34,960 nt of DNA from the NCBI GenBank assembly GCA_013538855.1, contig JABXJS010000257.1, positions 1-34,960 on the forward strand. Reading direction: 5' to 3'. Positions 26,212-28,920 of the stretch are shown piece after piece. The position numbers and the translations under genes were made by a program. Position 1 is the first letter of the stretch; the number at the start of each line of letters is the position of its first letter. The DNA comes from Herpetosiphonaceae bacterium. Its GTDB lineage: Bacteria > Chloroflexota > Chloroflexia > Chloroflexales > Herpetosiphonaceae. The notes beneath the pieces were generated by a model that saw only the letters and a program-made list of their open reading frames with translations, searched no databases and had not been told where the DNA came from.

Positions 26212-27600
26212 CTAGCTTGAGCGAATGGTCAGATCGATGTCCGACGGCGTAAAGTAGAGCTGAGCGCTGCCCTTGCTGAGCGCCGTCAGCGCCTCTTGAC
26301 GCCGCAGCGTGTTGAACAGCGCCACCTTATCGATAATCGTCACTCCATCGCCGAGGCCATCGAGAAACGCCTTCACGCGCAGCGACTCGGACTCGCCCTG
26401 CAGCATGCCCTCGATCTGGGCGTGCTCACGGCGGAGCTGGAGCAGCTGGCTGCGCTGTTGCTCAACCTCTATCTCGCCCTGCAACTGCTTCAGATGCACC
26501 TCGTTGGCGCTCTCCTGCTTCTGCAGGCGGTTGATGCGGTTGGTTGTCTCGTTAATGATCTCCTGCAGCACCTTCTGCGTGCTCGGGTCTTTGCTGGCGA
26601 TCGAGCGCACCTCAACCGAGTGCAGCGTAACGCCGCGCTCGCTGTAGAAGCTGGTATCGCCGCCAAGCACGGCATCGGCGATAATCAGATTGAAGCGGTC
26701 GAGGAACTGCTCCAGGTTCACTTGCGAGACCGCCTGGATGATCGAGGAGCGGGCGTGGGCGCAAATATCGCCCGGCGTGTCGTCAGTGGCGTTGATCATC
26801 AGCGCTAGGTCGCTGATCTCCCAAAAGAACGTGATGCCGATGATCAGCTCGACATTGTCGCGGGTGCGGCTCTCAAACTCGTACCACATAAACTTCGGGC
26901 GCAGATCGAAGCGCGTGATTGCGAGGCTGCGACGATCTTTGTGCAGGCCCGCCGACCAGTGTAGCTCGACGATCTGGTCGTAGGGCTGGAGGAAGAAGGA
27001 GCGCTCGGCGTCGCTGCCACGGCGAAAGACATAGCGGCCGGAGATATCTTTAATGACCATGGCCTCTTTGTCCTCAAGCCGAATGCGCTGCTCAATGCGG
27101 TCGATTTTCTGCGTGGCGGTGGGGATGAAGACCTGCTGCTCCGTGACGAGGCTGAGCTGCCCGTTGCGGGTGTCGCGCAGCACCACGGCGGTCTCATCGT
27201 CGATGTTCACGCCCTCTTTGACATTTTCCAAGATCTCTTCGTCTGGGTGCAGATAGACGGTGTTCTCGCCGCGCTCGACGCGAATCGCGCCAGTTTTGCG
27301 GTCGATAAGGCGAATATACTCATTGTGCTTGAGCGGGATCGCCTTCAGCGTGCTGACGATCATCTCGTCGGCGGCCAGGAAGAAGAGCTGTGGCCCGAGC
27401 ACATTGCGCTGCTCCCCGGTGAGGGTGTTGCGCACGATCAGGTAGTCGACCGGGCCAAGCGTGAGCGCCGGGCGCTTCTTGACCTTCCAGAATGGGCGCG
27501 TCAGCACCCGGCCGGGGCCATTGACCGTCCAGCGGCGGGTGAATGTTTCGATCAGAAGCTGCTCATCCTCTTTGAGAAAATAGATCCAGGGAATGATCAC
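26212..27600 (-). CDS. Major-vault-protein-like protein (vault repeats, SPFH shoulder, cap helix)
   Basis: A 462-residue protein starting at a GTG at 27600 behind AGAAAGGCAGG. Its order of parts resembles the upper half of eukaryotic MVP, the shell protein of vaults. Vault-type repeats lie at about 45-87 (TLGPVDYLIV, GEQRNVLGPQLFFL), 88-130 (IPLKHNEYIRLIDRKTG, VYLHPDE), 131-170 and 172-215 (FFLQPYDQI). Then comes an SPFH/band-7-like shoulder (about 224-340; NVELIIGITFFWEI, GDICAHARSSI). A charged, Gln-rich coiled coil (about 342-415) corresponds to the cap helix. MVP is about 860-890 residues with nine repeats, so this would be a shorter version. There is no signal peptide or transmembrane segment. 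A flotillin-like SPFH protein is the main alternative, but the repeats before the SPFH region favour a vault relation. Self-assembly is inferred. Confidence 0.7.
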   Translation of the reverse strand: MIIPWIYFLKEDEQLLIETFTRRWTVNGPGRVLTRPFWKVKKRPALTLGPVDYLIVRNTLTGEQRNVLGPQLFFLAADEMIVSTLKAIPLKHNEYIRLIDRKTGAIRVERGENTVYLHPDEEILENVKEGVNIDDETAVVLRDTRNGQLSLVTEQQVFIPTATQKIDRIEQRIRLEDKEAMVIKDISGRYVFRRGSDAERSFFLQPYDQIVELHWSAGLHKDRRSLAITRFDLRPKFMWYEFESRTRDNVELIIGITFFWEISDLALMINATDDTPGDICAHARSSIIQAVSQVNLEQFLDRFNLIIADAVLGGDTSFYSERGVTLHSVEVRSIASKDPSTQKVLQEIINETTNRINRLQKQESANEVHLKQLQGEIEVEQQRSQLLQLRREHAQIEGMLQGESESLRVKAFLDGLGDGVTIIDKVALFNTLRRQEALTALSKGSAQLYFTPSDIDLTIRSS

Positions 27601-27648
27601 GGGCGGCCTGCCTTTCTACATCTGGTGGAAATTGCTGCGCTTAGGATA

Positions 27649-27759: not shown

Positions 27760-28920
27760 CTACATCTTGATGCGATGGCCTGCCTTCTTCAGCTCCTCGC
27801 CGGCGATGACATACTTCTGGATCTCGTTGGTGCCCTCGAAGATGCGTGTGACGCGGGCATCGCGGTACATGCGCTCCAGCGGCAGCTCGCGGCTGAAGCC
27901 CATGCCGCCGTGAATTTGGATGGCCTCGTCGATGACCTCGGAGGCTGCCTCGGTGCAGAACAGCTTGACCATGGACGACTCCAGGGTGGCGGGCTTGCCC
28001 GCGTCGACGAGTGCGGCGCAGTGGTAGACCATCTGCTCCATCGCGTAGATCTTGGTGCGCATCTCGGCCAGCTTGAACTGGATGGCCTGGAAGTCGGCGA
28101 TGGGGCGGCCAAACTGCTGGCGCTCGATGCTGTAGCTGAGGGCTAGGTCGTAGGCCTCCTTGGCCGCGCCCAGCGATGAGGCCCCGAGGCCGCAGCGCCC
28201 GATGTCGAGGGTGCTCATGGCCACGCCGAAGCCTGCGCCAATCTCGCCGAGCACATTTTCGGCGGGCACGCGGCAATCCTCGAAGAACAGCGATGCCGTG
28301 TGCGAGGCGCGCAGGCCCATTTTCTCCTCGACCTTGCCCACTTTGAAGCCGGGGAAGTCTTTCTCGACGATGAAGGCGGTGATGCCGCCGCGTGCGCCTT
28401 TCTCTTTGTCGGTGACGGCAAACACGACGATCACGTCGGCGAAGGAGCCGTTGGTGATCCACATCTTCGAGCCGTTGAGCACCCAGTCGTCGCCGTCGCG
28501 GGTGGCCTGGGTTTTGATGTGCGCGGCGTCGGAGCCTGCGTTTGGCTCGGTGAGCGCCCATGCGCCGATCTTCTCACCGGCGTTCAGTGCCGACAAGTAC
28601 TTGTCCTTCTGGGCCTCGTTGGCGGAGAGGTAGATCGACATAGCGCAGAGCTGCGTCTGGGCCGCAATGATGGTGGCGGTGGAGGCACAGTAGCGGTTGA
28701 TCTCCTCAAGCAGGAGGCAGTAGCCGACGATGCCAGCGTCGGCACCGTTGTACTTCTCTGGGAAGGGCACGCCGAGCAGTCCCATCTCCCCAGCTTTTTT
28801 GATGGTGGCTAGCGGCACGCGCTCCTCTTCATCGATCTCACGAGCGATGGGTTTGATCTCTTTGACGGCAAACTCGTGGACGGCGTCGCGCAGCATGCGC
28901 AGATCGTCGGAGAATTCCAT
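27760..28920 (-). CDS. Acyl-CoA dehydrogenase
   Basis: An FAD enzyme of 386 residues that forms the 2,3-double bond of acyl-CoA, the first step of beta-oxidation. It has all the family marks: an N-terminal helical domain, LTEPNAGSDA around the middle beta domain, WVLNGSKMWITNG, and the C-terminal FEGTNEIQ, in which E362 takes the place of the catalytic base of medium/short-chain enzymes. IHGGMGFSRE helps bind FAD. The ATG follows AAAGGA closely. It lies on the same strand as the fadN-like and thiolase genes, but the C45-hydrolase and four-helix-bundle genes separate it from them. In Bacillus the comparable gene is fadE of fadNAE, but that protein is larger, so the name is not used. Chain length is not readable; butyryl-type enzymes look similar. 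Confidence 0.93.
   Translation of the reverse strand: MEFSDDLRMLRDAVHEFAVKEIKPIAREIDEEERVPLATIKKAGEMGLLGVPFPEKYNGADAGIVGYCLLLEEINRYCASTATIIAAQTQLCAMSIYLSANEAQKDKYLSALNAGEKIGAWALTEPNAGSDAAHIKTQATRDGDDWVLNGSKMWITNGSFADVIVVFAVTDKEKGARGGITAFIVEKDFPGFKVGKVEEKMGLRASHTASLFFEDCRVPAENVLGEIGAGFGVAMSTLDIGRCGLGASSLGAAKEAYDLALSYSIERQQFGRPIADFQAIQFKLAEMRTKIYAMEQMVYHCAALVDAGKPATLESSMVKLFCTEAASEVIDEAIQIHGGMGFSRELPLERMYRDARVTRIFEGTNEIQKYVIAGEELKKAGHRIKM

Follow-up and report, generated by a model that had tools for sequence, protein, structure and literature searches.

Do bacteria encode compact relatives of the protein from which eukaryotic vaults are built? Vaults are giant barrel-shaped particles, among the largest of eukaryotic cells and of unknown function, and the major vault protein (MVP) is their brick. 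The question is raised by a stretch of 34,960 nucleotides from a Herpetosiphonaceae bacterium of the phylum Chloroflexota (assembly GCA_013538855.1, contig JABXJS010000257.1; the whole stretch is hereafter called the window), in which an initial annotation, made from the letters alone, described the open reading frame (ORF) at 26212-27600 on the minus strand as MVP-like. Vaults have recently been called exclusive to eukaryotes (PMC11855390) and absent from prokaryotes (PMC9778704), and putative bacterial vault homologues have been mentioned (PMC7916137); PMC13404743 cites MVP homologues of bacteria and phages (Daly 2013; Burroughs and Aravind 2016; the preprints of Sokolskyi 2019 and Santos 2023) and places some bacterial ones in operons with RtcB. 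Here we report that this gene, mini-MVP, encodes a real, conserved and compact variant of the MVP kind, to be set beside the bacterial MVP homologues already reported.

Sequence relationship to MVP

The MVP-like character proposed for the protein was confirmed beyond chance by searches of the PDB. With the single sequence, phmmer returned six MVP sequences (E 7e-7 to 4e-5), and the sole other match was a ribosomal protein at E 0.27; a family profile of 20 sequences reached MVP at 7e-20, and the best SPFH domain (2rpb) at 0.14. The alignment behind this profile, to which family counts below refer, omits L019, another genome of genus g2 in which the gene lies at a contig edge. The phrases quoted in the initial annotation are all present in the protein (TLGPVDYLIV at residues 47-56, GEQRNVLGPQLFFL at 62-75, IPLKHNEYIRLIDRKTG at 88-104 and VYLHPDE at 115-121), and the MVP rhythm that it invoked was close to the mark: phmmer pairs IPLKHNEYIRLIDRKTG with IPLDQNEGIYVQDVKTG of rat MVP.

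Domain models divide the protein into two parts of different diagnostic value. Pfam Vault_3 matched the window protein with E 2.3e-7 and 31.3 bits, over its cut-off of 28.8, and MVP_shoulder (PF11978, cut-off 25 bits) scored 26.8 bits in a six-frame search and 23.5 bits in hmmscan; the six-frame search also gave Band_7 31.2 bits, over its cut-off of 23.6, and hmmscan gave no Band_7 row for this protein. When the 20 members were searched singly at E<=1, all of them matched MVP_shoulder, 19 Vault_3, 18 Band_7 and three Vault_4, with best E-values of 6.5e-11 for Vault_4 and 1.8e-8 for MVP_shoulder. Sequence alone thus places the shoulder about as close to SPFH as to MVP, and the repeats decide the assignment. 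A profile of the repeats only (residues 1-211) reached MVP at 2e-18 and found no flotillin, stomatin or any other SPFH protein in the PDB up to E 10, whereby the repeats score better against MVP than against flotillin, the outcome that the initial annotation had named as support; a profile of the shoulder and helix half reached MVP at 0.0013 and 2rpb at 0.043. Each half-length alignment holds 13 of the 20 sequences, the others being L009, L010 and L022, which carry extra repeats, and L015, L017, L020 and L021, which are close neighbours in the tree.

Two further properties were examined across the family. At the junction of wall and shoulder lies a G-x-x-K segment, with G218 and K221 invariant, that is aligned to SAGRPK of MVP; the pattern as typed occurs in 14 of the 20 members and in no long ORF of 20 loci with other Band_7 or weak SPFH-like matches. 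The highest 19-residue Kyte-Doolittle mean among the members is 1.72, so that the family has no clear membrane span; the maximum over such a length is N-terminal in none of the 20, and a transmembrane helix or hairpin ahead of the SPFH domain was found in none of them, a negative that does not extend to lipidation or interfacial strands.

In sum, the protein has tandem vault repeats, an MVP shoulder and a long helix directly after that shoulder, all of which are marks of the MVP family, and it is filed as a compact variant rather than as a canonical MVP because it and its relatives have five to seven repeats instead of nine. We regard homology of mini-MVP to MVP as almost certain, and place the protein, as a compact bacterial form, in the MVP branch of the SPFH superfamily.

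Predicted structure

The AlphaFold2 model of the window protein, built with 12 of the 20 sequences as input, has a mean predicted local distance difference test (pLDDT) of 83.8 and a predicted template modelling score (pTM) of 0.50. It comprises five beta repeats of about 42 residues each (residues 4-214), an SPFH domain, two helices and a loose tail, all encoded on the minus strand. The repeats, delimited by the predicted strands and a repeat hidden Markov model, are repeat 1 (residues 4-45; 27466-27591), repeat 2 (46-87; 27340-27465), repeat 3 (88-130; 27211-27339), which holds the Pfam Vault_3 match at 90-123, repeat 4 (131-172; 27085-27210) and repeat 5 (173-214; 26959-27084), which adjoins the shoulder. 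Repeat 1 begins with a conserved hydrophobic strand, PWIYFL, in which P4 is invariant and W5 is at least 90% conserved, and in pairwise comparison it resembles the other four only weakly (z 0.6-1.9). The SPFH or MVP shoulder domain (215-337; 26590-26958), supported by PF11978, the model and structural alignment with VIA-align, is followed by a single helix of 77 residues (339-415; 26356-26586), which the model and VIA-align identify as a shorter counterpart of the MVP cap helix. A second helix (422-443; 26272-26337) and a C-terminal tail without confident fold (449-462; 26215-26256; pLDDT <50) complete the model.

Thus, the initial annotation was right in proposing a half-length protein with its domains arranged as in the top half of eukaryotic MVP, and was one short in counting about four repeats. 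Where it placed a coiled coil after the shoulder, the model has one long helix. The two outcomes that it had set beforehand as fatal to its reading, namely best matches confined to flotillin or stomatin and a repeat region lacking beta repeats, were both reversed: the best matches are to MVP, and regular beta repeats are predicted throughout residues 5-194, where pLDDT averaged over 10 residues ranges from 78 to 94.

Structural comparison with the vault, as that annotation had advised, gave the same answer. In a Foldseek search of the PDB, MVP filled ranks 1-13 (best 3.7e-25), and the first other match was the SPFH-protein chain 7vhq_G at 1.6e-9. The best VIA-align superposition placed residues 1-449 of the model on residues 213-752 of human MVP (Z 18.2, root mean square deviation (rmsd) 29.5 Å, 426 aligned), and ten full-length MVP entries gave Z 15.6-18.2. 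Structures of stomatin, prohibitin, HflK/C, erlin and flotillin aligned with the SPFH domain and long helix at Z 10.1-13.4, the highest being the stomatin SPFH domain (Z 13.4, rmsd 2.6 Å, 111 aligned). The model of a seven-repeat orthologue from Oscillatoria sp. PCC 10802 (L010), likewise built with 12 of the 20 sequences, shows all seven repeats followed by the shoulder and the helix (pLDDT 81.1, pTM 0.43); it aligned with MVP from residue 45 onward (Z 18.1, rmsd 26.8 Å, 458 aligned), and Foldseek placed MVP at ranks 1-16 (best 1.6e-27), with the first non-MVP match at 7e-10.

In a viral structure library, the named matches within the first 20 rows were SPFH, Band-7, HflC/HflK or prohibitin-type proteins. 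The top viral structural matches were two proteins of Harvfovirus, a giant virus, of 507 and 802 residues (1.5e-13 and 6.4e-13), annotated as SPFH and prohibitin-domain proteins and aligned over 435 and 594 columns.

The family and its repeat number

A scan of GTDB species genomes, which relied on exact peptide patterns and therefore reached close relatives only, recovered 11 mini-MVP relatives in Chloroflexota and Muiribacteriota bins, two Oscillatoria and two Cloacimonadota, with 56-63% identity to the window protein (43% for Cloacimonadota). Within the phylum of the window, the gene was found in 10 of 400 genomes; 8 and 5 additional weak matches in the phylum scans covered only about residues 229-460 and resembled other SPFH proteins. 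In the window's own family, all seven genomes listed carry mini-MVP, and none of that family appears among the listed misses.

Seventeen of the 20 sequences have five repeats, one has six and two have seven, as counted with a repeat model trained on the same sequences, so that its scores are not independent of the count. The longer forms, at L009:8001-9644, L010:8001-9656 and L022:1495-3018, have naturally gained one or two complete extra repeats, and run to 507, 547 or 551 residues compared with 462. Ratios of nonsynonymous to synonymous substitution rates in five close pairs of relatives were 0.039, 0.012, 0.036, 0.145 and 0.021; these pairs do not include the window gene, which has no partner close enough.

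In a tree of the family, which was built without eukaryotic MVP or long bacterial MVP and so has no root against MVP, recent clades are well supported, the centre is unresolved and the window protein stands on its own branch; the genomes of the window's order group with an Oscillochloris bin with full support. By identity, the window protein is nearest to Oscillatoria (63%), of another phylum, whereas the other genus within its family reaches 58%. This nearness hints at transfer between phyla, which the tree does not resolve.

A mobile or viral origin of the gene was considered and rejected: PHROGs had no match for three proteins, no IMG/VR relative was confirmed with two peptide patterns, and tblastn found no match in plasmids (E 1e-3) or phages (E 1e-2). 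A role in defence was likewise rejected, as PADLOC had no match for four proteins.

The gene and its neighbourhood

The mini-MVP gene is complete and encodes 462 residues from a GTG start, on the evidence of the ORF, the homologue starts and the Pfam Vault_3 and MVP_shoulder matches; its homologues start with ATG at the same residue or one later. A putative ribosome-binding site, AGAAAGG, can be read at 27617-27611 on the minus strand (27611-27617), its end 10 nucleotides upstream of the start codon. The gene is the single mini-MVP match in its genome, where Band_7 matches seven times elsewhere, once only in part.

An acyl-CoA dehydrogenase-like gene (27760-28920) lies upstream in the same orientation, and downstream lie the diadenylate cyclase gene cdaA (TIGR00159, 2.4e-70) and a YbbR-type cdaR (PF07949). 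The adjacency to cdaA-cdaR, noted at the outset, is therefore real, but the genes are convergent with mini-MVP and the arrangement is not conserved: none of the ORFs flanking the gene in 19 relatives (two of them with only about 4 kb of flank) falls into a cluster with the cdaA or cdaR ORF. For this reason a link to cyclic di-AMP signalling was rejected. Neighbours were clustered from mechanically called ORFs (blastp, E 1e-8) in flanks of very unequal length; annotation covered ten proteins near relatives and nine plus three genes of the window, and the remainder were only clustered.

Among the clustered flank ORFs of the 19 relatives, no operon partner or cargo gene is common to distant carriers, so mini-MVP would act alone or with products encoded elsewhere. 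More local associations exist: an M28 peptidase gene lies downstream in both Cloacimonadota loci, and in genus g2 four clustered ORFs, one of them a ClpS match, adjoin the gene in four of five loci. Immediate neighbours elsewhere are unrelated (DHODH-like in L007, trypsin/PDZ in L005, DUF4236 in L002), and those of L003 and L033 had no annotation match. The window also contains a protein-kinase-domain gene (PF00069; 16001-18016, plus strand), and the same blastp cluster of kinases occurs near mini-MVP in L009, L010 and L033, possibly by chance, such kinases being numerous.

Discussion

Vault particles are 78-mers that form a closed 2 x 39 barrel, and half-vaults meet at their N-terminal rims. 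Like eukaryotic MVP (PDB 4v60, 9r86, 9bw5), mini-MVP runs from vault repeats through an SPFH shoulder to a long helix; it differs in having 462 rather than 861-893 residues (the range of the PDB entries matched), five repeats (at most seven in relatives) rather than nine, and a helix less than half as long as the MVP cap helix, with no confident counterpart of the MVP cap ring in the model. Our knowledge of it comes from sequence and monomer models. We propose that mini-MVP is probably a soluble stave, in which a short wall would consist of the five stacked beta repeats, the bend of the SPFH shoulder and the lid of the long helix. Lateral packing of many copies by way of the shoulder and the helix would quite likely yield a ring-shaped dome, a step that we infer from the use of these same parts for packing in MVP and other SPFH proteins (PMC13100048). 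Wall height would depend on how many repeats a protein has, and this would account for relatives with five, six or seven whole repeats; repeat 1, whose first strand is hydrophobic and conserved, would make up the open rim. Two such domes may meet and close a small cage, although we advance this only tentatively. As a stand-alone scaffold, it would likely serve to enclose other molecules or to keep them segregated.

Several observations weigh against this proposal. The MVP_shoulder score of the window protein is only at threshold, and the model superposes poorly overall on MVP chains of full length (rmsd 13.5-30.5 Å), with query-normalised template modelling scores of 0.29-0.45 in Foldseek. Such values mean that the long chains bend differently, which limits the structural support to domain order and local folds; poor superposition would be expected for long bent chains, yet it does not prove that the quaternary form is shared. 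The predictions are of monomers only, and at the pTM values given above the placement of the parts is uncertain. For the seven-repeat model, the Z scores of MVP chains (13.9-18.1) overlap that of stomatin (14.0), which aligns just its SPFH-helix part, so that Z alone discriminates less well there. The 77-residue helix is less than half of the MVP helix-cap (residues 647-814; PMC13347060), and no cap ring was confidently predicted beyond it, the helix at 422-443 giving way to the low-confidence tail. The hydrophobic periodicity of the long helix has a broad maximum at 96 degrees per residue, so that helix packing is not established. Finally, the neighbouring genes give no functional hint.

The strongest competing explanation is a membrane-docked dome of the kind formed by flotillin, stomatin or QmcA, in which the N-terminal rim would sit on the cytoplasmic membrane and mark a patch, never closing into a cage. 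Flotillin, stomatin, prohibitin, erlin, HflK/C and QmcA all have an SPFH domain followed by a long helix, and both the structural matches to this part of the model and the frequency of Band_7 in the family are as such a dome would predict; moreover, the hydrophobic first strand would lie at the open rim, where it could contact a membrane, and the very N-terminus is the most hydrophobic 9-residue stretch in three of the 20 members. However, structures of the SPFH family match the model only from residue 131 or later and lack tandem vault repeats, and their membrane-span-like anchor has no counterpart in any of the 20 members: the position usually taken by the anchor is occupied by five vault repeats that match only MVP. 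We hold a single dome on a membrane, as in flotillin or stomatin, slightly less probable than the closed cage.

The vaults of animals hold vault RNA and TEP1, a protein with a TROVE domain. This raises the further possibility that mini-MVP belongs to a vault-like RNA-protein particle with a TROVE (Ro60/TEP1-like) protein and a Y-like RNA. The genome of the window does contain a TROVE gene with a transfer RNA (tRNA)-like RNA just upstream, and among the 400 genomes of the phylum TROVE occurs in 8 of the 10 mini-MVP carriers and in 9 of the 390 others; in addition, earlier work cited in PMC13404743 placed bacterial MVP homologues and noncoding RNAs in RNA-repair operons. Nevertheless, TROVE and mini-MVP lie unlinked on different contigs of this genome, neither TROVE nor RtcB was recognised among the annotated neighbours (most of the ORF-called neighbours being unannotated), and none of 11 genomes of other carriers has TROVE (ten of these being metagenome bins of unstated completeness). 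A single family accounts for seven of the eight co-occurrences, and the association can thus be explained by shared ancestry. We attribute the co-occurrence to this ancestry and mostly reject the RNA-particle lead, which we consider improbable.

The RNAs themselves deserve a separate record. In the window's genome (contig C60), the tRNA-like RNA lies at L076:2616-2860 and TROVE at L076:945-2594; the RNA matches the Rfam tRNA model at 42.9 bits over a stretched 149 bases, and a second similar copy can be seen by eye further upstream. Other stretched tRNA-like RNAs precede TROVE at L072:9084-9190 (one) and L073:9469-9861 (two), and ARAGORN called no tRNA at the stretches upstream of TROVE. They resemble the tRNA-mimicking Y-type RNAs found beside bacterial Ro proteins.

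That mini-MVP is an ordinary SPFH or flotillin protein with a superficial vault likeness, as its SPFH-fold shoulder, the near parity of Band_7 and MVP_shoulder across the family and the further Band_7 proteins of its genome might suggest, is highly improbable and was rejected, because its repeats match MVP and no SPFH protein, MVP outranks every other SPFH structure for the whole protein (by profile, Foldseek and VIA-align), and the G-x-x-K junction aligns with MVP, while its pattern has no hit in the long ORFs of the 20 other Band_7 or weak SPFH-like loci.

With respect to the bacterial MVP homologues reported earlier, which we compare through the descriptions in the citing papers rather than by length or architecture, vault homology is common to both, and the RtcB operon described for some of them has no recognised equivalent among the annotated neighbours of mini-MVP. 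No description of the compact family was recognised in searches of the open-licence literature, which is weak evidence of absence. The vault shoulder has been reported to contain a pocket that binds NAD+, ADP and ADP-ribose (PMC13174449).

Several bacterial phyla, with at least one cultured carrier among them, may, at somewhat less than an even chance, build genuine miniature vaults in the form of closed or domed cages whose wall height evolves by whole repeats. A conserved relative of half length would offer a small, tractable system that can be expressed whole; the natural versions with five, six and seven repeats allow heights to be compared, and cultured bacteria permit deletion of the gene. 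Since the family is conserved in several bacterial phyla, whether bacteria build small vaults is a question that can be tested in the laboratory, and its answer would bear on whether it was in bacteria, ahead of eukaryotes, that an SPFH domain gained repeats and the vault wall grew.
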